Shown: one piece after another, positions 10,296 to 45,566 of the stretch
Position numbering within the stretch: position 1 is the first letter of the stretch
Layout of the letters: every line of letters begins with the position of its first letter
Assembly (NCBI GenBank): GCA_937125225.1
Contig: CAKZLE010000018.1
Coordinates: forward strand, 1-64,000
Origin: an uncultured Spirochaetia bacterium
Lineage (GTDB): Bacteria > Spirochaetota > Spirochaetia > CAKZLE01
DNA: 64,000 nucleotides
Reading direction: 5' to 3'
Translations under genes and position numbers: made by a program
Notes under the pieces: generated by a model
Database searches by the model: none
Told to the model about the DNA's origin: nothing
Seen by the model: the letters and a program-made list of their open reading frames with translations, nothing else

Positions 10296-10299
10296 TCTT

Positions 10300-27530: not shown

Positions 27531-27585
27531 TTGCATTATCTTTGAACCCATGTGTATAATGAAAACGTTACCGGAAACGTTTCCG
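27531..27585 (+). promoter_or_regulatory. Promoter and autoregulatory operator of the LacI gene
   Basis: TTGCAT (27531-27536), 18-base spacer, TATAAT (27555-27560). Immediately downstream lies GAAAACGTTAC followed by the perfect 14-bp palindrome CGGAAACGTTTCCG (27572-27585), which covers the expected transcription start. The same 25-bp block recurs at 28660-28684 in front of the next operon. The central AACGTT is typical of LacI-family sites. Confidence 0.8.
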
Positions 27586-27604: not shown

Positions 27605-28615
27605 TTGGCAATCACCATCCGTGATATAGCACAACATGCAAAAGTCTCAGTGACCACCGTATCTCGTGTACTCAATGATAGACCCGATGTCAAAGAGGCT
27701 ACTCGAGTGAAGGTGAATGCTGCCATCGATGAGCTCGGTTACAGTCCGAACATCGTAGCGAGAGGACTTGTCCTGCAGAAATCCCATGTGATCGGTTTCA
27801 TCGTCCCTGATATCACGAATCCCAGCTTTCCTGAACTTGCACGAGGTATCGTAGCCCAGGCAAGAGGGTATGGGTATTCTGTCATGTTCTATGATACGAA
27901 CCATGATAGAAGAGTGGAGAAGGAGGCAATCAGACTACTTAAGAGTAAACAGGTCGATGGTATCATCCTCTCCTTCAACGAGGCGAACAAAGAGGAACTC
28001 GAGCGACTGAAGCACGAACACTTCCCGATCGTGCAGATCTATAGGAAGAGTAGCAACTCGGTCGTCTCCACGATCGCTCTCGATAATGTGAAGTCAGGAT
28101 ATGTCGCTACCAAGTATTTGATCTCCTTAGGTCATAAGAGGATCGCCCATATCTCAACAGGTGAACAGGTCCAATCTGGTTCAGAGAGATTGCAGGGTTA
28201 TAGAGAGGCCCTGTCTGAGGCAGGGCTGCCGTATGAGGAAGATCTTGTATGTTTCGGGGTGAATAGTGCGGCCTCAGGTAAAGAGTGTATGGAGGAGCTG
28301 TTGTCTCTTGATGAGTCAGGAAGACCGACAGCGGTCTTTACCTGTCACGATATCATGGCAGCAGGCGCATATGATGCGATACTTGCTGCAAACTTGCGAA
28401 TACCCGATGATATATCGATCATCGGACATGATAATAATCAGCTATCATTATTGATCCATCCGAAGCTCACAACAGTGGATACCTATAAACACCAGTTGGG
28501 TCAGAAGGGTGTTGATCTGCTCTTAGAACAGATGAACGCAGAGGAGCCTACCTATAAAGAGGTCCTATGCGAAACAGGGTTAGTCATCAGAGAATCAACA
28601 AGAAGTATAGAATGA
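27605..28615 (+). CDS. LacI-family transcriptional regulator
   Basis: A 336-residue repressor. The N-terminal helix-turn-helix reads ITIRDIAQHAKVSVTTVSRV, followed by the hinge helix region NIVARGLVLQKS. The periplasmic-binding-protein-like effector domain begins IGFIVPDITNPSFPELARGI. The start is TTG at 27605, preceded by GGGAG; ATG is not available at this point. A shared operator sequence ties it to its own promoter and to the ADP-ribosylglycohydrolase/importer/citDEF operon downstream. Inducer unknown, presumably the imported sugar or riboside. Confidence 0.93.
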   Translation: MAITIRDIAQHAKVSVTTVSRVLNDRPDVKEATRVKVNAAIDELGYSPNIVARGLVLQKSHVIGFIVPDITNPSFPELARGIVAQARGYGYSVMFYDTNHDRRVEKEAIRLLKSKQVDGIILSFNEANKEELERLKHEHFPIVQIYRKSSNSVVSTIALDNVKSGYVATKYLISLGHKRIAHISTGEQVQSGSERLQGYREALSEAGLPYEEDLVCFGVNSAASGKECMEELLSLDESGRPTAVFTCHDIMAAGAYDAILAANLRIPDDISIIGHDNNQLSLLIHPKLTTVDTYKHQLGQKGVDLLLEQMNAEEPTYKEVLCETGLVIRESTRSIE

Positions 28616-28650: not shown

Positions 28651-28685
28651 TATAGTTTTGAAAACGTTACCGGAAACGTTTCCGG
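28651..28685 (+). promoter_or_regulatory. Promoter and LacI operator of the ARH/ABC/citDEF operon
   Basis: The 25-bp block found in front of the LacI gene recurs at 28660-28684. Here the palindrome extends to 16 bp, CCGGAAACGTTTCCGG (28670-28685). A TATAGT (28651-28656) just upstream is the likely -10; I see no good -35. The ATG of the first gene follows 20 bases later, so bound repressor would block initiation. Confidence 0.78.
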
Positions 28686-28705: not shown

Positions 28706-29701
28706 ATGCAGAACAAGAAAGTAGATGCAGAGGTGTTCACACAAAGATCGGTAGCTGCGATGGCCGCATTGGGTATCGGGGATGCTGCCGGTGATCTGGG
28801 ACGAGATGATGATGTGAGACTGCGATATGGTATCCTTGTCAGTCTTCTACCTGAAGGTAAGAGTACTGATGATACTGAGTTCACCGTGCTATCGGCACGA
28901 TGTCTACTTGATACAGATGGTGAGATAACCTCACAGAGCGTAGCTCAGACCTGGAGAGAGCTCGTGCTCTCTGATGGTGGAGCTAAGAAGAGGGGAGGAC
29001 TTCCCTTATATGGAGCATTATGGAACCTATCTCAAGGCATCGAGCCTCCACTGACTGGTAAGGACAATGCCTTCAATATCGATGATGGGGCTGCTATGAG
29101 ATCGGTGCCTTTCGGGATCGTGGCATGTGGTGATCCGAAAGAGGCTGCACGACTTGCAGCGATCGATGCATCAGTAAGCCATGATATTGATGGTATCTGG
29201 TCAGCACAGGCAATCGCTGCGAGTATTACCGTTGCATTGACCGGTGGCTCTGTTGAAGAGGTCTATAAGGCTGGGATGGATCAGATCCCTGAAGATAGTT
29301 GGCTTGGAAGAAGGATGAGACTCACCGATGAGATCCTTGCAAGTGATATGAGTGAGATGGAGAAGTTCGAAGCGTTGCATACGAAGTTATGGACCCCAAA
29401 ACACTCCTCATCTCCTGAGGCTATCCCTCAAGTATATGCACTCTATAAACTCTCAAACGGTGATTTTACCAAGGGCTTCCTGCTCTCCGCTAACTTCGGA
29501 AGAGACGCTGATACCGTCTGTGCTCTGACTCTGGCTCTTTGTGCGGCAGGATCTGATGCTGGTACTATTCCACAGGCCTGGATCGATCAGGTTCGTAAAC
29601 CTTCGGGGGTATGTCTCTCCTTCGCAGCACAAGAGGATATGGTGGATCTTGGACAACGATTAGCTGCATTGGGTCTTAAGAGAGCAGGTCAGAGGGCTTA
29701 A
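28706..29701 (+). CDS. ADP-ribosylglycohydrolase (DraG/ARH) family protein 1
   Basis: A 331-residue all-helical Mg-dependent hydrolase of the ADP-ribosylglycohydrolase fold. Metal-site motifs are present: GIGDAAGD, STDDTEFT near residue 55 and GRDADTVCAL near residue 270. Family members cleave ADP-ribose from proteins or small ribosides. The chosen ATG follows AAAGGGAG by five bases; a longer frame from 28643 crosses the operator. First gene of an eight-gene operon with an ABC importer, which points to a small imported riboside or related glycoside rather than a modified protein (inference). Confidence 0.88.
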   Translation: MQNKKVDAEVFTQRSVAAMAALGIGDAAGDLGRDDDVRLRYGILVSLLPEGKSTDDTEFTVLSARCLLDTDGEITSQSVAQTWRELVLSDGGAKKRGGLPLYGALWNLSQGIEPPLTGKDNAFNIDDGAAMRSVPFGIVACGDPKEAARLAAIDASVSHDIDGIWSAQAIAASITVALTGGSVEEVYKAGMDQIPEDSWLGRRMRLTDEILASDMSEMEKFEALHTKLWTPKHSSSPEAIPQVYALYKLSNGDFTKGFLLSANFGRDADTVCALTLALCAAGSDAGTIPQAWIDQVRKPSGVCLSFAAQEDMVDLGQRLAALGLKRAGQRA

Positions 29702-29706
29702 GATCT

Positions 29707-30612
29707 ATGATGAACAAGAGGTCACTAAAGAGACGGGTATACAGAGATCGCTATCTGTATCTCATATTCCTGCCGGTATTGGCATATTTCCTCGTTTGGC
29801 ACTACATCCCGATATGGGGCGCACGTATAGCTTTTCAGGATGTGAGATATATCGGCGATAATGAATGGGCAGGGTTGAAGCATTTCAAACTGTTGTTCTC
29901 CTCACCGGTATTCTTCCGTGTGTTCATGAACACCATCACTATCAGTTCGATGAAGATATTCTTCTTCTTCCCACTACCGATCATTCTTGCCTTCCTCCTC
30001 AATGAGGTGCGATCTCAGAACTTCAGGAAGGGCGTGCAGAGTATGATCTATCTGCCTCACTTCCTCTCTTGGGTAGTCATCGCAGGTATATTCATCTCCT
30101 TGCTGCAGTCTCCTGATGGTGCGGTCAACAAGGTGCTGGCATTCTTCGGGATGGAGACTATTCCCTTCATGACGAGTACCTCTCATATTAGATGGGTCTT
30201 CGTAGTATCGGAGATCTGGAGATCGATCGGATGGGATTCTATCCTCTATATCGCTGCGATCAACAATATCTCATTAGAACTCTATGATGCAGCGACCGTA
30301 GATGGTGCTACAAGATTACAGCAGGCGATGAAGATCACACTTCCCTCGATCCTGCCGACGATCATAACCGTCTTTATCCTGAACCTGGGGTTCTTCATGA
30401 ATGCAGGGTTCGATCAGGTCTTCAATATGATGAATGATGCAGTCATCAATCATGTCGATATCATCGACACCTATGTCTACCGGATCGGCCTTGGGAAGGG
30501 GAACTTCTCCCTAGGAACCGCAGCCGGACTCTTCAAAGGTGTCATCGGACTGTTTCTGATCCTCTCAACAGACCGTCTGAGTAGAAAGGTTACCGGGGAG
30601 GGAGTATGGTAA
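29707..30612 (+). CDS. ABC importer permease, LplB type
   Basis: A 301-residue permease with six membrane segments. Opening RDRYLYLIFLPVLAYFLVWH and the EAA loop LYDAATVDGATRLQQAMKIT followed by LPSILP match LplB/YtePQ-type subunits, which move oligosaccharides. Two consecutive ATGs (29707 and 29710) are possible starts. The stop overlaps the next permease gene by seven bases. Confidence 0.9.
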   Translation: MMNKRSLKRRVYRDRYLYLIFLPVLAYFLVWHYIPIWGARIAFQDVRYIGDNEWAGLKHFKLLFSSPVFFRVFMNTITISSMKIFFFFPLPIILAFLLNEVRSQNFRKGVQSMIYLPHFLSWVVIAGIFISLLQSPDGAVNKVLAFFGMETIPFMTSTSHIRWVFVVSEIWRSIGWDSILYIAAINNISLELYDAATVDGATRLQQAMKITLPSILPTIITVFILNLGFFMNAGFDQVFNMMNDAVINHVDIIDTYVYRIGLGKGNFSLGTAAGLFKGVIGLFLILSTDRLSRKVTGEGVW

Positions 30613-31499
30613 GGAGTAGAAAGAGAAGATCTACTGGACAGATTGTCCTAGTCGTATGTCTAGCATTACTATCACTAGCGATGTTCTATCCGATCTATAA
30701 CCAGTTGGTCATCTCTTTGACCGGTCCTGAGTATATAGCTGCAGCGAATGGGACGACAATCATTCCTCGAGGTTTTACCCTCAATACCTATATCAGTGTC
30801 CTCTCGATCCCGAAGGTCTACAGAGGTGTACTGAACAGTATGTTCATCACGGCCGTCGGACTCGTCGTGAATATCGTCCTGACTAGTATGGGTGCCTATG
30901 TCCTGACAAAGAGAGATCTTGTAGGAAGGAATTTCTTCATGACTCTGATCGTCATAACGATGATCTTCGAGGGGGGGCTCATCCCGGACTATTTCCTGAT
31001 GAGAGACCTTCATCTCCTCAACAGATATGCCTCAGTGATCATGTATAAAGCGGTGAATCCCTATTACCTGATCATCTTGATGCGTTTCTTCGATAAGGTT
31101 CCCAAATCTCTCATGGAATCAGCAAGACTCGATGGTTGTAGCGATATGAGAATCCTGTTCAAGATAGTCATTCCCATAAGTATCTCTGGAATAGCTACGA
31201 TCAGTCTCTTCTATGGGGTTTTCCATTGGAATGAGTACTTTAGAGCGATGATCTATCTGACCGATGAGGTGAAATATCCTCTGCAGGTAGTCTTGAGGGA
31301 GCTAATCGTATCTATGGAGAAGGCCTCATTCGTTGGAGCTAACAACTATATACAGAGTGCGACAACTGCAGCGGCATTGGATTTCAAGGCGATCAAAGCT
31401 GCCTTGATCATTATTGCGATCGTTCCGATCCTCGTATTCTATCCTTTCGTATTACGTTATTACGTAAAGGGGAGACTACAGGGAGCGATAAAAGAATAG
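30606..31499 (+). CDS. ABC importer permease, LplC type
   Basis: Partner permease, 297 residues, six membrane segments. LMESARLDGCSDMRILFKIV followed by IPISISG is the EAA loop. The long external loop after the first helix (GTTIIPRGFTLNTYISVL) is usual for LplC-like subunits. It is translationally coupled to the LplB-like gene. Confidence 0.9.
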   Translation: MVRSRKRRSTGQIVLVVCLALLSLAMFYPIYNQLVISLTGPEYIAAANGTTIIPRGFTLNTYISVLSIPKVYRGVLNSMFITAVGLVVNIVLTSMGAYVLTKRDLVGRNFFMTLIVITMIFEGGLIPDYFLMRDLHLLNRYASVIMYKAVNPYYLIILMRFFDKVPKSLMESARLDGCSDMRILFKIVIPISISGIATISLFYGVFHWNEYFRAMIYLTDEVKYPLQVVLRELIVSMEKASFVGANNYIQSATTAAALDFKAIKAALIIIAIVPILVFYPFVLRYYVKGRLQGAIKE

Positions 31500-31505
31500 T
31501 AAACT

Positions 31506-31522
31506 TGGGGGAAGATCCCCCA
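31506..31522 (+). other. Intergenic hairpin before the binding-protein gene
   Basis: Perfect 6-bp GC-rich stem TGGGGG / CCCCCA with loop AAGAT, seven bases after the permease stop and ahead of the AAGGAGG of the binding-protein gene. Probably a processing or stability element; no T-run. Confidence 0.55.
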
Positions 31523-31542
31523 CAAACCTAAGGAGGTTTACC

Positions 31543-32943
31543 ATGAAGAAAGTTTTATCAGTACTTGCACTATGTGTATTGGTAACAGGAAGTCTGTTTG
31601 CCGGTGGTGGACAGGAATTACAGATGGAAGACAATGTTCCAGTGATCAGAATCGTAAGTAAAGACGTCTCAGAATCAAACCCATGGGACAAGGCTCACCT
31701 TGATAACATCACAGCAGGATTCTCTGCATATGTTGGACAGGAAGTCGTATTAGAGTTCGTTGATATGCCAGAGGGCGCCTATGCAGAGAAACTCAATCTC
31801 ATGCTCCTCGGTGGCGACATCCCAGACCTGATCTATTTTCAGGGTGGAGATGAGGCAATCAGCAAACAGGGGATCTTAGAAGATCTTACTCCATTCGTTG
31901 CAGACTCTGCAGTGATGCAGGAAGTTCTGATGGATTTCAACAAGCAGAGAATGGCTAACTACCCATACCTGCTCTGGATAGCTCCTCCTCGAGCTCGAAC
32001 AGCAGTCGTTAGAGAAGACTGGTTCGAAGAGGCTGGTGGAGTGATGCCTGTGACCATCGATGATTATTATGACATGATGAAGACCATCAAAATGAATCAC
32101 CCAGAATCTGCAGTCGTGACAGATACCGGAAATACTGGAAGAATGGACTTCACCTTCGATCAGGCTTTTGGAAACACTGCTACTTGGGTCATGGAAGATG
32201 GTTCTTATGTTTACAAAGGTGTATCAGATGCTCAGAAAGAGAAATTGGCTTTCTATGCGAAACTCTATAGTGAAGGAATTCTCGACAATGACTATATCAC
32301 CACTAAATGGGACACCATGGAAGACAAACTCTATACGGGTCAAGTCGGTATGGTATTCGGTACTGCAGGTATCGTCCTAGATATCTACAACAACAAACTC
32401 CAAGAGAATCAGGGAGTTGGACTTGTAGCGCTACCACCAGCAAAAGGTGTAGGCCAGGGATATCCTGTATCATCAGCAAAAGAGACAAGAGGCTGGGCGA
32501 TCAGTGCTCTTTCAGCAAACAAAGATCTGACCTTCCAATTGCTCGAATACCTTGCAACAGATGAGGGACAGTTCATGGAGAGATACGGACTCGAAGATAT
32601 CCACTACACTATGAGTGGTTCTGACGTAGTCCTCACAGATGAGGCGAATAACTGGTGGCCAAGATTCCATGAAGTCATGAGCTGGGATGCACCGACTCCT
32701 CTGATGGGACCTGCTGGAATGAAAGGTTGGGAATTCATCATGGAATACTCCGTTGGTGATCCAGACTTCCCGATCCCTGAAGAACTCTCACCTACATGGG
32801 ATGCTTTGAGTAACCTTCAGAAAGAGTACACCTTCAAACTTATCACCGGTGAATATTCAATCGATATGTTCGATGAATTCGTAAAAGAGTGGTATGATCT
32901 AGGTGGAGAGAGAATAACAGAGTATGCGAACTCCGTTCTCTAA
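31543..32943 (+). CDS. ABC importer solute-binding protein, LplA-like family 1
   Basis: A 466-residue periplasmic binding protein. The signal peptide ends GSLFAGGGQE, again without a lipobox cysteine. VLEFVDMPEGAYAEKLNLML, GGDIPDLIYFQG and TGQVGMVFGTAG are the recurring parts of LplA-like proteins. AAGGAGG gives strong initiation. It is the fourth gene of the operon and is flanked on both sides by hairpins. Ligand unknown; flanking ADP-ribosylglycohydrolase-family genes suggest a glycoside or riboside. Confidence 0.92.
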   Translation: MKKVLSVLALCVLVTGSLFAGGGQELQMEDNVPVIRIVSKDVSESNPWDKAHLDNITAGFSAYVGQEVVLEFVDMPEGAYAEKLNLMLLGGDIPDLIYFQGGDEAISKQGILEDLTPFVADSAVMQEVLMDFNKQRMANYPYLLWIAPPRARTAVVREDWFEEAGGVMPVTIDDYYDMMKTIKMNHPESAVVTDTGNTGRMDFTFDQAFGNTATWVMEDGSYVYKGVSDAQKEKLAFYAKLYSEGILDNDYITTKWDTMEDKLYTGQVGMVFGTAGIVLDIYNNKLQENQGVGLVALPPAKGVGQGYPVSSAKETRGWAISALSANKDLTFQLLEYLATDEGQFMERYGLEDIHYTMSGSDVVLTDEANNWWPRFHEVMSWDAPTPLMGPAGMKGWEFIMEYSVGDPDFPIPEELSPTWDALSNLQKEYTFKLITGEYSIDMFDEFVKEWYDLGGERITEYANSVL

Positions 32944-32972
32944 GAAATAAGACGCAACTAACGAAATAGTAT

Positions 32973-33003
32973 ACCTGCAGGCAGAGTCTCTCAGCCTGCA
33001 GGT
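32973..33003 (+). other. Intergenic hairpin after the binding-protein gene
   Basis: Perfect 10-bp stem ACCTGCAGGC / GCCTGCAGGT with an 11-base loop, 30 bases after the stop codon. There is no T-run. Likely protects the upstream message and lowers readthrough into the enzyme genes. Confidence 0.6.
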
Positions 33004-33031
33004 CATATCTGTAAAGGGAAGATTGAAAGCT

Positions 33032-35122
33032 ATGACAGCAGAACAGTATCGACAGAGAGTCTATGGTGGACTTCTTGGAAAATGTGCAGGTGTACGACTC
33101 GGTGCACCGGTCGAACCGACTATCTGGAGTTATGAGAGGATCAAACAGACTTATGGTGATATCACAGGATATGTGAAGGATTATAAGAACTTCGCAGCAG
33201 ATGACGATGTGAATGGACCCATGTTCTTCATACGGGCACTGATCGATCAGAAAGATGAGATGAGTGCAGAGGCAGTAGGAAGAACCTGGCTCGATTATAC
33301 CCGAGAGGGGATCGGCTTCTTCTGGTGGGGTGGTTACGGCAGATCTACCGAACACACCGCCTATCTTAATATCGCAGCTGGAATGAGACCTCCTGAGACA
33401 GGAAGTGGAGAGGTGAATGGATATGCTCTTGCTGAGCAGATCGGTGGACAGATCTTCATCGATTCCTGGGGATGGGTATCACCGGATGATCCCGATCAGG
33501 CAGCACAGTTCGCCGAAATGGCAGCGAGTGTAAGTCATGGGAGAAATGGTGTATATGGTGGGATCTTCATAGCCGTATGTATCGCTCTCGCCTTCAGTGA
33601 AGATGATATTGAGAAGATCATAGAGAAAGCTCTGACCTATATACCCGATGACTCTGAATATACCCGAGTGGTAAAAGCAGTTCGTGATCTCTATAAGAGG
33701 GATCCTCTACAGTCACATTGGCGGGATGCTAGAGATATGCTTACCAGGGACTTCGGATATGATAGGTACCCTGGAGTCTGTCATATGATCCCCAATGCTG
33801 GCGTCTGTGCCCTGGCTCTCTATTATGGCCAGGGAGATCTAGCTCGAACTATAGAGATAGCAACGATGTGTGGTTGGGATACCGATTGTAATGCCGGGAA
33901 CGTGGGAGCGATCCTTGGTGTCATGAGAGGCCCTCAAGGGGTCCCTCAACGATACAGAAGACCCATCGGTGATGTGCATGTGGCAAGCTCCATCTCAGGA
34001 GCCCTAAACATCATCAATCTACCGAATGCAGCGACCGAACTCGCTATCCTCGGTGCAGGTTTGGAAGGTATAGAGATCCCTGAAACCTGGAAGGAGGGGG
34101 CTTTCAGTGATGACATCGTCCTTGATCTCTCACTTCCCGGGGGGACTGCCGGACTGAGAACCTCTTCAGATTACCTCGCACCGGTAGCACCGGGTGAAGA
34201 GTACTATCGTGAAGATGGGGTAGCCGTGATCCTTGATCGACTCATTAGAGGCAACCGTGCCCGAATCTTCTATAAACCCTACTATCGTAGAGACTCCTTC
34301 GATGATGAGCGGTATTCTCCTACCTTCACACCAACAGCCTATCCGGGACAGACCCTGAAAGTCTCTGGATACCTAGAGAAGATGAGCGGTCAGAGAATAG
34401 CATTGTCTCCCTATGTGAGAGATGCTAAAGCTAAAGAGGTCTTTGAATCCGAATATATCTTCATAGGTGACTCAGATGAGTTCTCTTTTGAGTATACCCT
34501 ACCAGAGGTTCCCTTCGCTATCGATGAGGTAGGAATATTGGCAACGAACTTCGACAGCGAGAAATATCTGGGGACTCTTGTCATCACCAGCTTCACAGTC
34601 ACGGGGAAGAGGTCCTTCTCTATAGAGTTCAAAGATGAGATCAAGGAGTTCAAAGGGCTGACACGGTGCTCTCTCTCTGGGGGCGCCTTTGATATCGAAC
34701 AGGAATCCCTTCATATGATCACCACTGATACGAGTGAACTCTACAGTGGACCCTATTATGGGAAAGACTATAGCGTCTCTACCTCGATGATACCTGAATA
34801 TGGGGATAGTCATATGCTCATATTCAGAGCCCGGGGTGCAGCTTCAGGATATTTCTTTGGTTTCAGCGGGAAAGACCGGGTCTCTCTTATCAAGAGGGAT
34901 AAGGATCTTGAGATCATCAAAGAGATCGATTATTCCTGGGAACTCGCAAAGAGCTATTCCCTTACCGTCAGATGTGACGGTAATACCTTTACCTGCAGTA
35001 TAGAGGGAGAGGAGCTTCTGAGTTGGACTGATCCTGATGCCTATCCCTATGGGATGGCAGGTGTGGGAAAACTGGCTGCAGGAAGGACTCGATACTTGAA
35101 TCTATCTTATCAGGAGTCGTAA
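33032..35122 (+). CDS. ADP-ribosylglycohydrolase-family protein 2 with C-terminal beta-sandwich domains
   Basis: A 696-residue protein. The N-terminal 340 residues are an ADP-ribosylglycohydrolase fold: GGLLGKCAGVRLG, AADDDVNGPMF and CGWDTDCNAGNVGAI supply the metal-site acids. The remaining 350 residues are beta-rich and look like two carbohydrate-binding or lectin-like domains (for example ISGAL to YLGTLVITSF, and the final EFKGL to YLNLSY part). No signal peptide, so it is cytoplasmic. ATG at 33032 is preferred over a TTG at 33023 because of spacing to AAAGGGA. Probably a glycosidase-like hydrolase on the imported compound. Confidence 0.82.
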   Translation: MTAEQYRQRVYGGLLGKCAGVRLGAPVEPTIWSYERIKQTYGDITGYVKDYKNFAADDDVNGPMFFIRALIDQKDEMSAEAVGRTWLDYTREGIGFFWWGGYGRSTEHTAYLNIAAGMRPPETGSGEVNGYALAEQIGGQIFIDSWGWVSPDDPDQAAQFAEMAASVSHGRNGVYGGIFIAVCIALAFSEDDIEKIIEKALTYIPDDSEYTRVVKAVRDLYKRDPLQSHWRDARDMLTRDFGYDRYPGVCHMIPNAGVCALALYYGQGDLARTIEIATMCGWDTDCNAGNVGAILGVMRGPQGVPQRYRRPIGDVHVASSISGALNIINLPNAATELAILGAGLEGIEIPETWKEGAFSDDIVLDLSLPGGTAGLRTSSDYLAPVAPGEEYYREDGVAVILDRLIRGNRARIFYKPYYRRDSFDDERYSPTFTPTAYPGQTLKVSGYLEKMSGQRIALSPYVRDAKAKEVFESEYIFIGDSDEFSFEYTLPEVPFAIDEVGILATNFDSEKYLGTLVITSFTVTGKRSFSIEFKDEIKEFKGLTRCSLSGGAFDIEQESLHMITTDTSELYSGPYYGKDYSVSTSMIPEYGDSHMLIFRARGAASGYFFGFSGKDRVSLIKRDKDLEIIKEIDYSWELAKSYSLTVRCDGNTFTCSIEGEELLSWTDPDAYPYGMAGVGKLAAGRTRYLNLSYQES

Positions 35123-35129
35123 GAAGCTT

Positions 35130-35393
35130 ATGGAAGTATGTAGCGGGAATAGAAAGAGGGGAGATCTTATCGTACGGCTTGATGACCGGGAGAATCCCTT
35201 GAATATGAGTATCACCTCGTCTGTGGAGTCTCTCTTTGGAGAACACCTCAAAGGGGTCGTAGAGGATACGATGAAGGCTCTTGGGATCACTACCGGGAAT
35301 CTGATCATAGAAGATGATCAGGCTCTTGATTTCGTTATCAAAGCACGTGTGATCGCTGCTGTCCAACGATTGAAAATGGAGGTGCAAGTATGA
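35130..35393 (+). CDS. citD: Citrate lyase acyl-carrier (gamma) subunit homologue, CitD-like
   Basis: An 87-residue homologue of CitD. Shared features are GDLIVRL, ITSSVESLFG and EDDQALDFVIKARVIAAV. In known CitD proteins Ser14 of the motif GTLESGD carries the phosphoribosyl-dephospho-CoA group. Here the aligned stretch is SGNRKRGD, so Arg10 replaces that serine. Cys4 and Ser5 are nearby. The gene starts seven bases after the upstream hydrolase gene and overlaps citE by four bases (ATGA). It either works without the normal prosthetic group or attaches something elsewhere; function is uncertain. Confidence 0.8.
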   Translation: MEVCSGNRKRGDLIVRLDDRENPLNMSITSSVESLFGEHLKGVVEDTMKALGITTGNLIIEDDQALDFVIKARVIAAVQRLKMEVQV

Positions 35394-36241
35394 GAACACT
35401 CTTATATACTCCCGCGAACACCCCTTCGATGATGATTCAGGCTCAAGTCTATGGAGCGGACGCTGTCATCTTTGACCTAGAGGATGCGATCGCCCCTGAT
35501 AAGAAGCTCGAGGCTCGGATCCTCCTGGCACAGATGTTCGAAGAGTGGGATTTTGAGACAACCGAGTTGATCGTACGAATCAATGGCCTCGATACTCCCT
35601 GGTGGAAAGAAGACCTTATCGCATTGATGGGGAAGAGAGCGTTTACCGTTCGTGTCCCAATGATTGAGACCCTAGAACAGGTTACACTACTCGATCGATT
35701 CCTCAATGACCTGGAGACCGAACGAGATATGGTGGTAGGGTCGACTCGTATACATATTCTTATCGAGACTCCGAAAGGTGTGGTAAACGCCTATTCGTTG
35801 GCAGGCGCCTCAAAGCGGATCACTGCTCTGGGATTCGGCGCTGAAGATTATTGTAGGGCGACTGGTATCATACGAAAAGGACCACCATACACCCTAGATT
35901 ATGTACGCAGCTCCCTTGTGAATGCGGCAGCCTCTTACGGATTGGAATGTCACGATTGTGCTTGGGGCTTTCTAGAAGACAGAACAGGTCTCGAAGAGGA
36001 GGCTAGAAGATCTAGATCTTTGGGGTTCTGTGGAAAGTCAGTTATTCATCCAGATCAGATTGAGATCGTGAATAGGGTATTCTCTCCAACAGAAGATGAG
36101 ATCAACTGGGCTGAGAGGATTCTCTCCTCTCTCTCAGGCGATGTTCATACCGTATCCGGGCAGATGATAGATGCACCGGTTGAGGCTCAAGCGAGAAGGA
36201 TCCTAGAGCTTCACTCGATCTATACCAAACAAGAAGAGTAA
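35390..36241 (+). CDS. citE: Citrate lyase beta subunit homologue (HpcH/HpaI aldolase family), CitE-like
   Basis: A 283-residue TIM-barrel lyase. LLYTPANTPSM, FDLEDAIAPD, VRINGLDTPW, ILIETPKGVVNA (metal-binding Glu), GFGAEDY (metal-binding Asp) and GFCGKSVIHPDQ follow the CitE order. One departure is VPMIET where CitE proteins normally have LPK. The expected role is cleavage of a citryl- or citramalyl-type thioester to an oxo acid and an acyl thioester. It overlaps citD and lies two bases before citF. Confidence 0.85.
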   Translation: MRTLLYTPANTPSMMIQAQVYGADAVIFDLEDAIAPDKKLEARILLAQMFEEWDFETTELIVRINGLDTPWWKEDLIALMGKRAFTVRVPMIETLEQVTLLDRFLNDLETERDMVVGSTRIHILIETPKGVVNAYSLAGASKRITALGFGAEDYCRATGIIRKGPPYTLDYVRSSLVNAAASYGLECHDCAWGFLEDRTGLEEEARRSRSLGFCGKSVIHPDQIEIVNRVFSPTEDEINWAERILSSLSGDVHTVSGQMIDAPVEAQARRILELHSIYTKQEE

Positions 36242-36243
36242 TC

Positions 36244-37776
36244 ATGATTTCACGAACAATACCAGATACCTATAAGGGGTACGGTGACGTACGTCCCACT
36301 ATGAATCAAACAAAGAGCCATACAGCACAAGTAGGTGACCTCCTAGACGAGGATCCGATCATTGATTCTTTGAGAAAGAAGGGGCGTACTCCCATACGCT
36401 ATGAAGAGCTTTCTCAGATCATTAGGGCATCGGGTCTTGCAGATGGGATGAGGATCAGTTTTCATCATCATCTGAGACTCGGGGATCGAGTATTACAGAT
36501 GGTCCTCGAAGAGTTGATGAAGATGGGTTTCAAAGATCTTACCCTCTGCCTCTCTTCAGTCATGGGAGAGGCCTGTAAAGCCGTATTACAAGCGGTAGAG
36601 ACCGGTGTGATCTCGATGATCGAGACGACTGGGATGAAACCTCCACTCTCAACGGCAGTCCAGCAGGCTACCTTGGGTATCCCTGTCGTGATACGTTCTC
36701 ATGGAGGACGGGCCCGAGCTCTTATGCAGGAAGATATTTCGATCCAAGTCGCCTTCATCGCAGCTTCAGCCTGTGATAGGAGGGGTAATATAACAGGAGC
36801 TGTTGGACCGAATAGGTTCGGTTCTATCGGGTATGCTATCCCTGATGCACTAAGATCCGAGTATGTTGTAGTGATCACTGATCATGAGGAGGAATCTATA
36901 CCGGTATCCATTCCCTATCAAGCCATTGATGGACTCTTACGAGTTCCCTCCATAGGAGCGAAAGAGGGGCTATCCGGGGGTTCTATTCGAAGAACCAAGA
37001 GACCTGTGGAGAAACTGATCGCAAGAAGAGCTGCTGAGGTGATCATAGCCTCAGACCTAGTAAGGGCTGAGTTCTCCTTTCAGGTAGGTAGTGGGGGTAT
37101 ATCATTAGAGGTATCACAGATACTCGCAGAGTATCTGAAGAAGAGGGACATCAAGTGTTCTTTTATCTCCGGTGGTATCACAGAACCTCTTGTGAAGATG
37201 CATGAAGAGGGCCTTGTAGAGCGACTGTATGATGTTCAGAGTTTTGATGATGCAGCAGCAGTCTCTCTCTCAGAGAACAAGGAGCATATTGAGATGAGTT
37301 CATCATTATATGCAGACCCAACCAATGAGTCCTGTCTAGCTCATAGACTCGATATCATGGTCCTCTCTGCTACCGAGGTCGACCTCGATTTCAATGTGAA
37401 CTCCTTCACTGGAACCGATGGAAGGATCCTCGGTGCCCTCGGAGGTGCCCCGGATACAGCAGCAGGGGCACGATTGACCGTAGTCGTTCTTCCCTCCTTC
37501 AGAGGAAGGATCCCCTCGATCTGTTCTTCAGTACGAACCGTCTGTACACCAGGTGGGACCGTCGACGTGGTAGTCACTGAACGAGGTATCGCAGTGAACC
37601 CTTTAAGAGAAGATATTCTTAGCTGTCTGAAGACTGCGGGGATCCCTACTCTTACGATGGGAGAACTCTTGGAAAAGGTTCTGGGTATTACAGGAAAACC
37701 TATGAGTATAGCAAGACATGCTCAACTTCAAGGAATCGTAGAATATAGGGATGGTACGGTTATCGATACATTCTGA
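36244..37776 (+). CDS. citF: Citrate lyase alpha subunit homologue (CoA/ACP transferase), CitF-like
   Basis: A 510-residue protein, the normal length of CitF, which swaps acetyl for citryl on the carrier protein. MRISFHHHLRLGD and the C-terminal GGAPDTAAGARLTVVVLPSF followed by RGRIPS and VTERGIAVNP match the family; the usual GGHSDTAAGA reads GGAPDTAAGA here. Last gene of the operon. No citC, citX or citG lies in the window, so maturation of a normal citrate lyase would need genes elsewhere. Confidence 0.87.
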   Translation: MISRTIPDTYKGYGDVRPTMNQTKSHTAQVGDLLDEDPIIDSLRKKGRTPIRYEELSQIIRASGLADGMRISFHHHLRLGDRVLQMVLEELMKMGFKDLTLCLSSVMGEACKAVLQAVETGVISMIETTGMKPPLSTAVQQATLGIPVVIRSHGGRARALMQEDISIQVAFIAASACDRRGNITGAVGPNRFGSIGYAIPDALRSEYVVVITDHEEESIPVSIPYQAIDGLLRVPSIGAKEGLSGGSIRRTKRPVEKLIARRAAEVIIASDLVRAEFSFQVGSGGISLEVSQILAEYLKKRDIKCSFISGGITEPLVKMHEEGLVERLYDVQSFDDAAAVSLSENKEHIEMSSSLYADPTNESCLAHRLDIMVLSATEVDLDFNVNSFTGTDGRILGALGGAPDTAAGARLTVVVLPSFRGRIPSICSSVRTVCTPGGTVDVVVTERGIAVNPLREDILSCLKTAGIPTLTMGELLEKVLGITGKPMSIARHAQLQGIVEYRDGTVIDTF

Positions 37777-38030: not shown

Positions 38031-40259
38031 ATGGGAATGATCAATTACAACAAGAAACAACAAATATTCCACCTCAATAATAATAAGATAAGCTATGTGA
38101 TCGGTGTATCGGATACAGGAAAACTGATGCACCACTACTATGGCTCCTTTATTGGGAACCAGCAGGACTTCTCCTGGTTCGTACAGGTGAGTCCACGAGC
38201 TCTTGCTGCTACTCAGAGTGGGCAGAGTATCAGTGATGAATACATCAGACATGAATATGGGACCTGGGGGACCGGTGATTATCGGGAACCCTCCTATTCA
38301 ATATTCTATGGTAATGATAGGAGACGATGTCAGTTCGCCTATCATGATCATAGGATCATCAGTTCAAAGAACTCGATTCTCCCGCTTCCTGAAGTAAGAG
38401 ATCCCAGAGGGGAATCCGAGACTCTTGAGATCGTACTGTTCGATTCGAATGCCGGTGTCATGCTCACATTAGTCTATACTATCTATCCTGAACTCCCGGT
38501 GATCGTCAGATCGGCTCGGGTACTCTCCCATAATGAAGAACCACTTGATATCAAGAGACTCAATAGTGCCTCTATCGATCTGTTCTCAGAAGATTATGAA
38601 GCCTATTCTCTCTGGGGCACCTGGGCTCGAGAGAGACATATACAGAAGAATCAATTATCGAAGGGGATCTTCTCCATTGGAAGTACCCGTGGGGCTAGTT
38701 CAGCTGATGCCAATCCCTTCATAGCTCTTGCTTCTTTGCATGCAACAGAACAGAGTGGGACAGTCTATGGCATGTCTCTTATCTATTCTGGGAACTTCAA
38801 AGCACAGGCAGAGGTCGACCATGATGGGATGACAAGGATGTCTATAGGGCTCCACCCTGATAACTTCAGTTGGTCTCTCTCTAAAGATGAATCCTTTCAG
38901 ACTCCTGAGGCGGTTCTTGTCTATTCGGACACCGGCCTCGGTGGACTCAGTCAGGGTTTCCATGAGCTAGCGAAGGAATATATCCAATCACCTACCTGGA
39001 AAGATACCGAAAGACCGATCGTACTGAATAATTGGGAAGCTACCTACTTTGATTTCGATGAAGAGAAGATCGTAGAACTCGCAGCGTCAGCTAAAGATCT
39101 TGGTGCTGAACTCTTTGTTTTAGATGATGGTTGGTTTGGAAGACGAAATGATGACACCTCATCACTCGGGGACTGGTATGTGAATACTGAGAAACTCCCG
39201 AGTGGTATATCTGGGCTCTCGAAGAGGGTGACAGATCTTGGAATCGGTTTCGGATTATGGATTGAACCAGAGATGGTCAATAGGGACTCTGATCTCTATC
39301 GCAGCCATCCTGAATGGGTCTTGGGCGATCCTGAACGTGCGACTATCGAGGTTCGGAATCAGCTAGTATTGGATTTTGCCAACCCATCTGTCGTCGATGC
39401 GATCTATTCGCAATTGATCGATGTGATCGATGGTTCAGCTATCTCCTATATCAAATGGGATATGAACAGGAATATGACTGAGCCGTACAGTCGATATATT
39501 GGAAGTAGTAGGCAGGGAGAGGTCCCTCACCGATATATTCTTGGTGTCTATGATCTCTATCGCAGGCTCAATGAACGTTATCCTCATATTCTTTTCGAAT
39601 CGTGTGCTTCAGGTGGAAACCGGTTCGATCTTGGGATGCTCTATTTTGCTCCCCAGGCTTGGACTAGTGATGATACAGATGCTGTTGAGAGGATAAAGAT
39701 CCAGTATGGGACGAGTATGGTCTACCCGCTCTCCTGTATCAGTAATCATGTATCAGATATTCCCAACCACCAGGTCGGAAGAAGCTGTCCTCTGAAGTTC
39801 AGAGGTGATGTTGCCTGTTTCGGTATCTTCGGTTATGAGATGGATCCAACGAAAGCAGATGAGCAATTAAGAGCAGAGATACAAGAGCAGGTCACTGCCT
39901 ACAAAGCCTTCCGGCCACTGATGATGAATGGCCACTTTTATCGGCTCCTAAGTCCTTTTGAGGGGACGGGGAATCAGGCGGCCTGGATGGTCGTATCAAA
40001 AGATAAGAGAGAGGCTCTTGCAGCTTTCTATCAGATACTCGCTGAACCGAATCCTGGTGAGAGAAGAATAAGATTCACCGGATTGGATCCGCATCTGACC
40101 TATGAGGTCACCTGTGATGGTGAGAGATCAATACTTGCTACCGGCAGGTTGTTACTATCCTTCGGATATATTCTGCCTCCGGTCTTCACCGGACATGGCG
40201 GGTGCAGTGGAAAAGCAGAAGATTTTTATTCTAGATTGATTAAGATCATGGCGGTTTGA
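38031..40259 (+). CDS. Alpha-galactosidase, GH36
   Basis: A 742-residue cytoplasmic enzyme that removes alpha-galactose from melibiose, raffinose and related sugars. The N-terminal beta-sandwich runs to about residue 330. The TIM barrel then has LDDGWFGRR, YIKWDMNRNM with nucleophile D477, and TSDDTDAVER with acid/base D547; the 70-residue spacing equals that of D478/D548 in Geobacillus AgaA-type enzymes. The start codon lies six bases after the -10 and has no Shine-Dalgarno, so the message may be leaderless. Importer genes follow after 37 bases. Confidence 0.93.
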   Translation: MGMINYNKKQQIFHLNNNKISYVIGVSDTGKLMHHYYGSFIGNQQDFSWFVQVSPRALAATQSGQSISDEYIRHEYGTWGTGDYREPSYSIFYGNDRRRCQFAYHDHRIISSKNSILPLPEVRDPRGESETLEIVLFDSNAGVMLTLVYTIYPELPVIVRSARVLSHNEEPLDIKRLNSASIDLFSEDYEAYSLWGTWARERHIQKNQLSKGIFSIGSTRGASSADANPFIALASLHATEQSGTVYGMSLIYSGNFKAQAEVDHDGMTRMSIGLHPDNFSWSLSKDESFQTPEAVLVYSDTGLGGLSQGFHELAKEYIQSPTWKDTERPIVLNNWEATYFDFDEEKIVELAASAKDLGAELFVLDDGWFGRRNDDTSSLGDWYVNTEKLPSGISGLSKRVTDLGIGFGLWIEPEMVNRDSDLYRSHPEWVLGDPERATIEVRNQLVLDFANPSVVDAIYSQLIDVIDGSAISYIKWDMNRNMTEPYSRYIGSSRQGEVPHRYILGVYDLYRRLNERYPHILFESCASGGNRFDLGMLYFAPQAWTSDDTDAVERIKIQYGTSMVYPLSCISNHVSDIPNHQVGRSCPLKFRGDVACFGIFGYEMDPTKADEQLRAEIQEQVTAYKAFRPLMMNGHFYRLLSPFEGTGNQAAWMVVSKDKREALAAFYQILAEPNPGERRIRFTGLDPHLTYEVTCDGERSILATGRLLLSFGYILPPVFTGHGGCSGKAEDFYSRLIKIMAV

Positions 40260-40296
40260 TCAAGGATCTGGATTCGATTCATAAAAGGGGAGGGGT

Positions 40297-41160
40297 ATGG
40301 AAAAAAAGTACATGTTCATTTTATTGTGGTTTCCGTTACTGTTGTTCGTAGCAGCATTTGCGTTGCCTTTATTCTACGGTGTCCTACTATCACTCAAAGA
40401 TACCAGTGGTAACTTTGTCGGAGTCACAAACTACGTAAGCGTACTTACAGATCAGAGATTCTGGGGTTCTCTCGGATTCACGTTCTTCTTTGCGTTTGTC
40501 GTCGTAGGACTCATGACGACCTTGGGACTGCTTTTCGGTGTGTTCATCAATCATCTGACGGTCGGTCAGAACCTGGTAAAATCATCGATGCTCATCCCAT
40601 GGGCTATCTCTTTAACTGCATGGGGACTATTAGGACAGATCGTGTTCAGTAAGGATTACGGTATCGTGAATCATCTGTTGATGGTCATTGGTCTGATAGA
40701 CAAACCGGTCGTCTGGCTTGCCGACCCGGGTAATGCGAAGTTCGCGATCATCGCATCCCGTATCTATAAGGATGTCTGGTTCGGTACACTTCTCTTCCTC
40801 GTAGCTCGACAGGGTATTTCCGGTGAGCTCTATGAAGAGGCAAAGGTCTCTGGAGCGACAGGCAGGTTCTGCCTATGGCATATAACGATCCCGCTACTTC
40901 GACCGACAATCCTCTATGTGGGGATCATCAATATGATCTTCTCCCTGCATGAGTTCGACCAGGTCTATGCACTTACTAAGGGTGGTCCGGGGTTTGCGAC
41001 TGAGACAGCAGCTATGGGTATCTATAAACATGGGATGCTCTTCGGTAACTATGAGATAGCGATAGCCCAATCGATCCTATGGAGTATCTTCATTGGAACA
41101 CTTGCAGTGATCATTTTTGTTCCAGGACAGTTAAGGAGTTTACGAAATGGCAATAAATAG
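40297..41160 (+). CDS. ABC sugar importer permease, MalF/UgpA type
   Basis: A 287-residue permease with six membrane segments, preceded by AGGGGAGGGG. The EAA loop is LYEEAKVSGATGRFCLWHIT followed by IPLLRPT. GGPGFATETAAMGIYKHGML is also typical of MalF-like subunits. It is downstream of the alpha-galactosidase gene, which suggests transport of alpha-galactosides. Confidence 0.9.
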   Translation: MEKKYMFILLWFPLLLFVAAFALPLFYGVLLSLKDTSGNFVGVTNYVSVLTDQRFWGSLGFTFFFAFVVVGLMTTLGLLFGVFINHLTVGQNLVKSSMLIPWAISLTAWGLLGQIVFSKDYGIVNHLLMVIGLIDKPVVWLADPGNAKFAIIASRIYKDVWFGTLLFLVARQGISGELYEEAKVSGATGRFCLWHITIPLLRPTILYVGIINMIFSLHEFDQVYALTKGGPGFATETAAMGIYKHGMLFGNYEIAIAQSILWSIFIGTLAVIIFVPGQLRSLRNGNK

Positions 41161-41998
41161 AAAAGCATATACCATGGTGCAGCTTCGTAAAGCTGGACAG
41201 GCATTGTTGGTTCTCGCCCTTTTGATCATGATCCTCTTTCCGATCTTCTGGCTTGGGCGGATATCTCTTACGGCTGAGAAGGCGATACTCTCAGAGCATG
41301 TGACACTACTCCCTGCAAAAGGGGATGTCAGTCTAGAGGCCTATCGGATAGCTTTCACAGAACATGACACGCTGAAATACCTGTTCAACTCTCTATTCAT
41401 TGTCCTCTGTGCGACGACGGTATCACTGTTCTTCAGTATATCTATCGCCTATGTGATAACGAAATATGAGTTCAAGGGAAGGACGGCAGTCATGACCGGG
41501 ATCCTTTTCTCGGTGACCATCCCCTGGATCGTCTATATCTTGCCACTGTTCACGTTCGCAGCCCAGGTCAACTGGCTTGATAAGCATGGTTTCATGATCT
41601 TCCTCTATGGGGTGAGTGGGATCCCGTTGTTTACCTGGTTCGCCATGCCCTATATGCAGGAGTTTCCTACAGAGATGATAGAAGGTGCAAAGATCGATGG
41701 CGCGAATGATCTGGTGATCCTCATACGGATCATCATCCCAGCGGTGAAGAATGTGTTGTTCGCCCTGTTCTTGATCAGATTCATCTGGGCCTACAATGAT
41801 CTGTTGTTCTCACTGACATTCACCTTCCACAAAGCGAAGATGATCATGCCTGCGATCCTGGAATTTGGGGGGCTCTATTCGGTACCATTCGCACGAATGG
41901 CAGCTGGTGGTGTCATTGCTATCACCCCTATCGTCCTACTTGTGATCGTTTTTCAGAAATATATCGAAACAGGTCTTACCGGCCGAACATTCAAATAG
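41147..41998 (+). CDS. ABC sugar importer permease, MalG/UgpE type
   Basis: A 283-residue partner permease overlapping the previous gene by 14 bases, with AAGGAG just before the ATG. Six membrane segments; the EAA loop is MIEGAKIDGANDLVILIRII followed by IPAVKN. No ATPase gene accompanies this importer either. Confidence 0.9.
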   Translation: MAINRKAYTMVQLRKAGQALLVLALLIMILFPIFWLGRISLTAEKAILSEHVTLLPAKGDVSLEAYRIAFTEHDTLKYLFNSLFIVLCATTVSLFFSISIAYVITKYEFKGRTAVMTGILFSVTIPWIVYILPLFTFAAQVNWLDKHGFMIFLYGVSGIPLFTWFAMPYMQEFPTEMIEGAKIDGANDLVILIRIIIPAVKNVLFALFLIRFIWAYNDLLFSLTFTFHKAKMIMPAILEFGGLYSVPFARMAAGGVIAITPIVLLVIVFQKYIETGLTGRTFK

Positions 41999-42005
41999 TG
42001 ATTTT

Positions 42006-42022
42006 ACCGGTTGTTAACCGGT
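42006..42022 (+). other. Intergenic hairpin before the binding-protein gene
   Basis: Perfect 7-bp stem ACCGGTT / AACCGGT with a 3-base loop, seven bases after the permease stop and ahead of the GGGAGG of the binding-protein gene. Same placement as the hairpin at 31506-31522. Confidence 0.55.
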
Positions 42023-42046
42023 GTGATAATAAGAAGGGAGGTTCTT

Positions 42047-43336
42047 ATGAAAAGAACATTGGCAGTTTTAGTGGTTTTATTGATGGCTTGTACCCTGCTG
42101 TTCGCAGCAGGTCAGCAGGAAGAAGAAGTAAATGCAGATAGCGGGAAGATCGTTCTGTATTCTCCATCTTGGGGTATCGAGTTCGCAGAAGAGATGATCG
42201 CAGAGTATGCAAAAGTCAAACCTGGTGTAGAGATCGAATTGATGAGAGGACCATCAGCATGGAACGAACATGTTGGTAGAACTTCATTATGGATGAAGAC
42301 CAAATTCTCAGGTGTAGACCTGGTATACATGGATGACAGTGGTATCGTCGATGGTGTTCCTAACGGGTATTGGGAAAAACTCGATGATGTATTGGCTCCA
42401 GGTTCAATCGAGAACCTCGTAGGACTACAGCAGAAATATATCGATGCACACGGTGGATTATACCGAGTCCCATGGTGGAACGGTATGGGATACCTTTTCT
42501 ACCGAATAGATATGTTCGAAGAGGCTGGCATCGAAGTTCCCACAACTTGGGACGAGTTGATGGTAGCTGCTGAGAAATTGACAATCGATAAAGATAATGA
42601 TGGAACGATCGACCAGTGGGGATACCTCACACAGGGTGGACCTGGTGAGATGTACAACAACTGGACAGAGTTCCTGATGCAGGCTGGTGGAGATCAGTTC
42701 AAATATGCTGAGAACGGAAAGGCAACAGACGAAGCTCTTAATGCTCTTCTGTTTATGAAAGAACTTTATAACACCGTCACTCCTCCAGATATGGTAGCGA
42801 TTGACTACAACCAGAGTAGAGCGATGTTCACTCAGGGTAAAGCAGCGATCCTTAGAGATTGGGCAGACACTGGTAGACTTGCAGTCACAGAAGGTATGAC
42901 CGACAAGATCGGGGTCATGGAATTCCCAGCAGGTCCTGCAGGCTCATGGGGAGTCGGCCACTCTTGGGGTATCGCAGTCAATAAGTTCGGTGATAACTAC
43001 AAGAAGAACCCACAAGCGATCGTAGACTTTCTAAACTTCATGATGACTGATGAGATCCACTCGATCTCAGCTAAGGCAGAAGGTCCAGCACTCGCATCTA
43101 TCATGGACGATCCTGCAAAACTCGATAAGATCATCCAGGGTTCGATCGTGATCGAACACTTCTCAGATTTTATCAATCACCGAGACGTTCGTAACTTCCC
43201 AGCCGGGAACTCCGCTGAATATATGGATATCATCGGAAAGAACATCTCAGCATTCGTTTTTGATAGAGATGCAGATCTTGCAGATGCAAATGATGTCTTA
43301 GTCACTATCCAGGAAGGATTAGATCCACTGTTCTAG
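42047..43336 (+). CDS. ABC importer solute-binding protein, family 1 (alpha-galactoside candidate)
   Basis: A 429-residue periplasmic binding protein. Start at 42047 is five bases after GGGAGG and gives the signal peptide MKRTLAVLVVLLMACTLLFA with AGQQEEE after it; a longer frame from 42011 reads through the hairpin. There is a Cys in the signal sequence (ACTLLFA), but it is not in a normal lipobox. KIVLYSPSWGIEFAEEMIAE and GKAAILRDWADTG follow the family pattern. It ends the operon and is followed by a strong terminator. Confidence 0.92.
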   Translation: MKRTLAVLVVLLMACTLLFAAGQQEEEVNADSGKIVLYSPSWGIEFAEEMIAEYAKVKPGVEIELMRGPSAWNEHVGRTSLWMKTKFSGVDLVYMDDSGIVDGVPNGYWEKLDDVLAPGSIENLVGLQQKYIDAHGGLYRVPWWNGMGYLFYRIDMFEEAGIEVPTTWDELMVAAEKLTIDKDNDGTIDQWGYLTQGGPGEMYNNWTEFLMQAGGDQFKYAENGKATDEALNALLFMKELYNTVTPPDMVAIDYNQSRAMFTQGKAAILRDWADTGRLAVTEGMTDKIGVMEFPAGPAGSWGVGHSWGIAVNKFGDNYKKNPQAIVDFLNFMMTDEIHSISAKAEGPALASIMDDPAKLDKIIQGSIVIEHFSDFINHRDVRNFPAGNSAEYMDIIGKNISAFVFDRDADLADANDVLVTIQEGLDPLF

Positions 43337-43465: not shown

Positions 43466-45541
<2,076 letters not shown>

Positions 45542-45566
45542 CTTCTATATCCTTATGGTTTTCTGT

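Follow-up and report, generated by a model that had tools for sequence, protein, structure and literature searches.

Why would a bacterium encode citrate-lyase-like subunits together with ADP-ribosylglycohydrolase-type enzymes? This question is raised by an operon within 64,000 nucleotides of DNA (hereafter, the window) from an uncultured Spirochaetia bacterium. The window belongs to contig C18 (CAKZLE010000018.1) of assembly GCA_937125225.1, which is 3.43 Mb and 97% complete and whose nearest relatives are spirochaetes. Profile matches identify eight genes at 28706-37776, all on the plus strand, that encode two ADP-ribosylglycohydrolase-family proteins (ARH1 and ARH2), two permeases, a binding protein, and CitD, CitE, and CitF; a lacI gene lies upstream. 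The original prediction for this locus, made from the letters of the DNA without database searches, gave this gene order and strand, and all eight genes are present with good family matches.

That prediction offered two ideas. Either an imported glycoside or riboside is split by the two hydrolases and the acid product is cleaved by the lyase, or the hydrolases act on the ribose-ribose bond of the citrate lyase cofactor. We lean towards a form of the first: a LacI-controlled catabolic operon in which a sugar-acid conjugate would be imported, cleaved by the ARH enzymes, and its acid degraded by CitDEF acting on free CoA. Going beyond the original prediction, we found a change in CitD, a second citrate lyase in the genome, and an interchangeable slot in related operons. 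The features of the locus are:

27561..27585, plus strand: LacI-type operator 1, a 25-mer (GAAAACGTTACCGGAAACGTTTCCG) before lacI
27605..28615, plus strand: LacI-family repressor with a TTG start (PF00356 and PF00532), presumed regulator of the operon and of itself
28660..28684, plus strand: LacI-type operator 2, a 25-mer identical to operator 1, before ARH1
28706..29701, plus strand: ARH1, ADP-ribosylglycohydrolase-family enzyme (PF03747, E=2e-35) that keeps the TDDT and DADT metal-site motifs
29707..30612, plus strand: LplB-type permease (PF00528), a conserved neighbour
30606..31499, plus strand: LplC-type permease (PF00528), a conserved neighbour
31543..32943, plus strand: solute-binding protein (PF01547)
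32974..33002, plus strand: intergenic hairpin between the binding protein and ARH2, with a 9-bp stem and no T-run (from sequence; not listed as a terminator)
33032..35122, plus strand: ARH2, an ARH catalytic half (PF03747, E=1e-57) joined to a beta-rich half that ends in a CBM66-like lectin domain
35130..35393, plus strand: CitD-like carrier protein (PF06857, E=6e-17; just below the NCBIfam citD cut-offs)
35390..36241, plus strand: CitE-like lyase subunit (PF03328; below the equivalog cut-off)
36244..37776, plus strand: CitF-like acyl transferase subunit (TIGR01584, 505 bits versus a cut-off of 501)

The CitD attachment site and the cofactor genes

Canonical CitD carries its prosthetic group on a serine that we take to be Ser14 (Klebsiella pneumoniae numbering), within the motif GTLESSD. 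In alignments, the CitD of the window has GNRKRGD instead, and Ser14 corresponds to Arg10 of the window protein. Position 14 is a lysine or an arginine in 14 of the 15 ARH-linked loci (lysine in L007, L008, L010-L015, L049, L052, L076, and L079; arginine in the window and L161). The sole serine is in L018, which has a full canonical set. All of the canonical CitD rows have serine at this position, and the loop contains no further conserved serine. In the model of the window CitD (pLDDT 94), Arg10 lies in a loop joining two strands. The model resembles a malonate decarboxylase carrier (5vit_C, TM 0.72), which came from a fold search; a sequence search of the PDB with CitD gave only chance matches. 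The related carrier MdcC bears its group on Ser25 (PMC5534430).

CitF matches the solved structures 2hj0 (E=3e-121) and 1xr4, and CitE is closest, among solved proteins, to malyl-CoA lyases and citrate-lyase-beta-like proteins. Members of the CitE family cleave thioesters of the citryl, citramalyl, and malyl types. R63, E126, and D153 of CitE are invariant in all 48 aligned rows, and because these catalytic residues are kept, we expect the lyase of the operon to be active.

In canonical citrate lyases, CitX, CitG, and CitC have roles in making, attaching, and acetylating the cofactor (PMC10798043). None of the three is encoded in the window operon. The genome carries them only with a separate, canonical operon (C34:164863-173434, or L006:6864-15435), which encodes CitC, CitD, CitE, CitF, a TctABC-type carrier, and a fused CitXG, so the citDEF of the window is a second, divergent set in its genome. 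It encodes CitD, CitE, and CitF together, and it shares their order, their families, and the catalytic residues of CitE with the canonical citCDEFXG of K. pneumoniae and of the C34 operon, but its CitD lacks Ser14, it has no adjoining citC, citX, or citG, and it is set in a sugar-import operon. The clostridial citramalate lyase of glutamate fermenters (PMC4682846) is likewise a citrate-lyase-type complex, but it keeps CitC, CitX, and CitG along with CitDEF.

Across genomes, CitX was found in 14 of the 16 with a canonical CitD and in 0 of the 14 that hold only a non-canonical CitD (Fisher p=8e-7, taking related genomes as independent and including several incomplete metagenome-assembled genomes). 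CitX matches in G008 and G015 looked like counter-examples, and their contigs show separate canonical cit operons. The genome of L049 gave no CitX match. Among the genomes tested, CitC matches of over 240 bits (true CitC) occur only alongside a canonical CitD. Weaker CitC matches of 20-29 bits, in small open reading frames (ORFs), were taken to be other nucleotidyltransferases. Since CitD lacks Ser14, and genomes with only such a CitD lack both CitX and CitC, the lyase of the operon probably runs on free CoA. This seems to us the most economical reading, more so than attachment of the group at another site on CitD.

Some results weigh against it. Besides the non-independence and incompleteness of the genomes counted above, G033 was placed in the canonical class by its genus, with its CitD unread, although dropping it leaves the picture unchanged. 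Also, four Brachyspira-like genomes are nearly complete and lack CitX even though their CitD has a serine aligned with position 14; the match between this residue and CitX is therefore imperfect.

The CitX-free class extends beyond the ARH operons, since the Brachyspira-like sets and those of L169 and L171 also lack CitX. In L169:7286-10027 and L171:7584-10283, citDEF (with Ala14 and Lys14, respectively) lies directly 3' of 2-hydroxycarboxylate carriers (PF03390), with no ARH context. In L167:1418-4107 and L170:7007-9754, Brachyspira-like citDEF (the genus is a guess) has a shortened CitD start (ISDD) and is beside DcuC-type or Tct-type carriers. The CitF proteins of L167, L170, and L171 (K14) group together, with that of L169 (A14) joining them less surely.

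The CitF proteins of the ARH-linked loci with Lys14 or Arg14 fall into at least two separate groups, and an origin of these proteins in one clade was rejected (AU p=0.002). L018 is a third recruitment of citDEF into an ARH operon. Judging from these CitF groups and L018, the association of citDEF with ARH arose more than once.

Interchangeable acid-lyase modules beside ARH2

The original prediction had called for a survey of gene neighbourhoods, and it would have been refuted had related genomes never linked the ARH/importer genes to citDEF; they do link them. Using one genome per species, we found 426 relatives of ARH2 and kept the best 80 loci; with additional spirochaete genomes, there were 86 loci. 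The link between citDEF and ARH recurs in 15 citDEF-bearing loci from several families, and because of this recurrence, the linkage exceeds chance. It is kept at 44-70% identity of ARH2, in both spirochaetes and clostridia.

More broadly, ARH2, an importer, and an acid-lyase module are linked in the best 80 of the 426 relatives. In 56 of these 80 loci, the module is AtuA with DUF4387, and none of the 56 has a Cit gene. The remaining loci have a whole or partial citDEF, CitE with either CaiB or an NDP-forming CoA ligase, just a CoA ligase, or else no recognised module. Across all 86 loci, the slot beside ARH2 is filled by AtuA in 59, by a CitE-type lyase in 19, by neither in 8 (several of which end at contig edges), and by both in 0. 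The tree of ARH2 implies at least 8 changes in the AtuA trait and at least 9 in the CitE trait. Inside the AtuA clade, AtuA was lost and a CitE lyase holds its place in each of L069, L082, L037, and L018: CitE with CaiB in L069 and L082 (CaiB was also called in L072), CitE with a CoA ligase in L037, and, in a Clostridium-group genome (L018:8975-18682), a row of genes for ribokinase, ARH2, a second ARH, CitD, CitE, CitF, CitC, and a fused CitXG. Against this pattern stands a sign test on independent pairs, which was not significant (p=0.06-0.25, with few informative pairs).

AtuA, which is named for acyclic terpene utilisation and belongs to an unrelated family absent from the window operon, has been tentatively assigned as a 3-hydroxy-acid lyase that releases acetate (PMC4847356). 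A DUF1446/AtuA protein is also encoded in the glutamate-fermentation cluster of E. coli, where the citramalate-cleaving enzyme lacks an assignment (PMC4682846). The CitE and CaiB pair recalls the CoA-dependent (S)-citramalyl-CoA lyase pathways (a CoA transferase with CitE/RipC), in which CoA activation is likewise followed by a CitE-family lyase; however, those pathways lack CitD and CitF, and the transferase in the window is of the CitF type. The acetate and pyruvate chemistry of the clostridial citramalate lyase would also fit an exchange with CitE and CaiB. Because each alternative module of recognised function activates and cleaves a hydroxy-acid, the acid is predicted to be of the citrate or citramalate type, which would fit all of the modules.

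In one locus (L052:3905-8976), citD is fused in frame to citE and is followed by genes for CitF, CaiB, and an HMG-CoA-lyase-like protein, all behind ARH2. This may indicate two parallel acid-cleaving routes; the fusion may be an assembly error.

We put forward tentatively, with rather less confidence than an even chance would imply, that these CitDEF proteins form a class that lacks bound phosphoribosyl-dephospho-CoA and uses free CoA, that Lys or Arg replaced the serine at least twice independently within an ARH-importer operon, and that AtuA-DUF4387 is an isofunctional replacement and hence an unrecognised citramalate/citrate-type acid lyase. If so, citrate-lyase-type complexes can do without their unusual cofactor, AtuA/DUF1446 and DUF4387 (long uncharacterised) gain a testable function, and there is a candidate for what becomes of citramalate when enterobacteria ferment glutamate.

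A possible pathway and its alternatives

ARH1 and ARH2 both have the PF03747 profile match and the fold, and no other PF03747 proteins are encoded in the genome. The nearest solved relatives of ARH1 are the DraG and MJ1187 structures. In ARH2, the metal-site motifs are ADDD and WDTD (WDTDC) rather than TDDT/DxDT, and ADDD and DTDC are invariant in 30 relatives. The AlphaFold model of ARH2 (pLDDT 87, pTM 0.90) matches ARH3 (6hh4, TMt 0.70) and CBM66 (4azz/4b1m, TMt about 0.8) in Foldseek; no signal peptide was seen in ARH2. CBM66 binds fructofuranose ends. Compared with DraG and the known enzymes ARH1-3, the window's pair has the same fold and most of the metal-site motifs (kept in its ARH1, altered in its ARH2), but it lies in an importer operon (with ribokinase in relatives), and its ARH2 has an added CBM66-like domain.

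The two permeases and the binding protein make up a CUT1/LplBC importer. Among solved proteins, the binding protein is closest to AlgQ1/AlgQ2, whose ligands are acidic oligosaccharides, and to a set with the label solute-binding protein family 1. The permease pair and the type of binding protein are common to the LplBC/AlgQ-type importers; the window operon has no ATPase gene, and its ligand is a prediction.

Ribokinase is encoded in most of the Firmicute ARH2 loci (above the TIGR02152 cut-off in L082 and L049). Because of this ribokinase, the CBM66-like domain of ARH2, and the AlgQ-like binding protein, our preferred candidate for the sugar part is a furanoside, most likely a riboside. Several points tell against a riboside: no ribokinase is encoded in the operon, either here or in the related spirochaete loci, the best ribokinase in the genome lies outside it (C18:97790) and scores 276 bits, which is below the cut-off, and ribokinase-type kinases can take other sugars. 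We could not name, on evidence, a natural compound that joins ribose to a citrate-type acid. Putative esterases (PF00756) are in or beside some ARH2 operons (L025:12081-12848, L032:12092-13204), which hints that some substrates contain an ester.

In the pathway that we favour, the substrate would be a small, acidic conjugate of a sugar, taken up by way of the binding protein and LplBC; the likeliest form is a hydroxy-acid linked to ribofuranose or another pentofuranose. The two ARH-fold hydrolases would split it in the cytosol, with ARH2 probably gripping the furanoside by its CBM66-like domain. The sugar would pass to ribokinase (a gene of the operon in Firmicutes, located outside it in the window genome), and CitDEF would convert the released citrate- or citramalate-type acid to acetate and a 2-oxoacid. 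Here, CitF would catalyse an exchange on free CoA (acetyl-CoA + acid giving acyl-CoA + acetate), and CitE would cleave the acyl-CoA and regenerate acetyl-CoA. CitD may be retained in a structural role or for docking CoA, with its Lys or Arg perhaps contacting the phosphates of CoA. The original prediction is partly supported, then: its first idea agrees with the Firmicute ribokinase, with a slot that almost always holds an acid lyase or a CoA-activating enzyme, and with a binding protein akin to those for acidic oligosaccharides.

The complex might instead be an ordinary lyase of citrate or citramalate that depends on the prosthetic group, borrows CitX, CitG, and CitC from a canonical operon, and carries the group on another residue. 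The window genome does have such an operon, and L018 has the canonical set in the ARH slot itself, but the 14 genomes with only a non-canonical CitD have no CitX (nor, in those tested, a true CitC) to borrow, and the CitD loop offers no other conserved serine, so we consider this unlikely. It is rather improbable that citDEF is beside the ARH-importer operon by chance and serves an unrelated degradation of free citrate or citramalate. Most relatives lack citDEF, and CitX-free citDEF also adjoins 2HCT and DcuC carriers without ARH; yet the linkage has persisted across divergent ARH2 proteins from spirochaetes and clostridia, with gaps of 7 bp or overlaps in the window, the at least two CitF groups (AU test above) and L018 are separate cases of it, and CitE lyases and AtuA are mutually exclusive.

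The two remaining alternatives concern the ARH pair. As DraG-like hydrolases of ADP-ribosylated proteins or as signalling hydrolases, they could regulate the importer and the lyase rather than act as catabolic glycosidases, which would suit the DraG-type metal motifs of ARH1 and its nearest solved relatives. We find this very doubtful given the lectin domain of ARH2, the co-occurrence of ribokinase, and the location of the genome's only two PF03747 proteins in this operon; nor was an ADP-ribosyltransferase seen adjoining either gene, on inspection of the neighbourhood by eye only. Even less credible is the second idea of the original prediction, that the ARH pair breaks the link between the two riboses in the citrate lyase prosthetic group for turnover or salvage. 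ARH folds do cut ribosyl bonds and the cofactor holds one, but 59 of the 86 loci pair ARH2 with AtuA and have no citrate lyase, the CitD of the window lacks the attachment serine, the machinery for the cofactor is found only beside the separate canonical operon, and the importer points to an external substrate.

If the pathway of import, ARH cleavage, and CitDEF on free CoA is correct, then spirochaetes, clostridia, bacilli, and paenibacilli use an undescribed nutrient, a sugar-hydroxyacid conjugate. Our searches of a literature collection with few subscription papers turned up no account of a pathway that combines ARH proteins with citDEF or with AtuA. The families are known; we did not find their combination, or the change at the carrier site, described.

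Operon layout, regulation, and neighbouring genes

The original prediction noted one LacI-type operator, and there are two identical ones, before lacI and before ARH1. In the whole 3.43 Mb assembly, exact copies of the palindromic core occur only at 27561-27585 and 28660-28684. A third copy, with one mismatch, lies on C23 where a short ORF begins, ahead of an oligopeptide-type permease set, and we took it to be due to chance. Five related spirochaete loci (L007, L008, L009, L011, and L012) have an ortholog of lacI at the head of the operon and tandem sites resembling both operators at the junction of lacI and ARH1.

Within the operon, ARH1 and the first permease gene are 5 bp apart, the permease genes overlap, and the gaps on either side of the binding protein gene are 43 bp and about 79-88 bp. 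Further downstream, ARH2 and citD are separated by 7 bp, citD and citE overlap by 4 bp, and citE and citF are separated by 2 bp. The short gaps and lack of a clear terminator that were originally described hold up: spacings are 2-88 bp or overlaps, and a pattern scan found no terminator between the operon genes above chance, with promoter- and terminator-like sites at about the chance level. From this arrangement, we infer that the eight genes are co-transcribed under LacI control. The hairpin after the binding protein gene (32974-33002) has a strong stem and is perhaps an RNA-processing or stabilising element.

The next operon downstream (38031-43336) encodes a GH36 alpha-galactosidase, two permeases, and a binding protein, and it is followed by a second lacI at 43472-44485. 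Finally, by eye only, we noticed three uroporphyrinogen-decarboxylase-type lookalikes adjoining sugar operons in the window (at 10270-11376 and 44474-46721).

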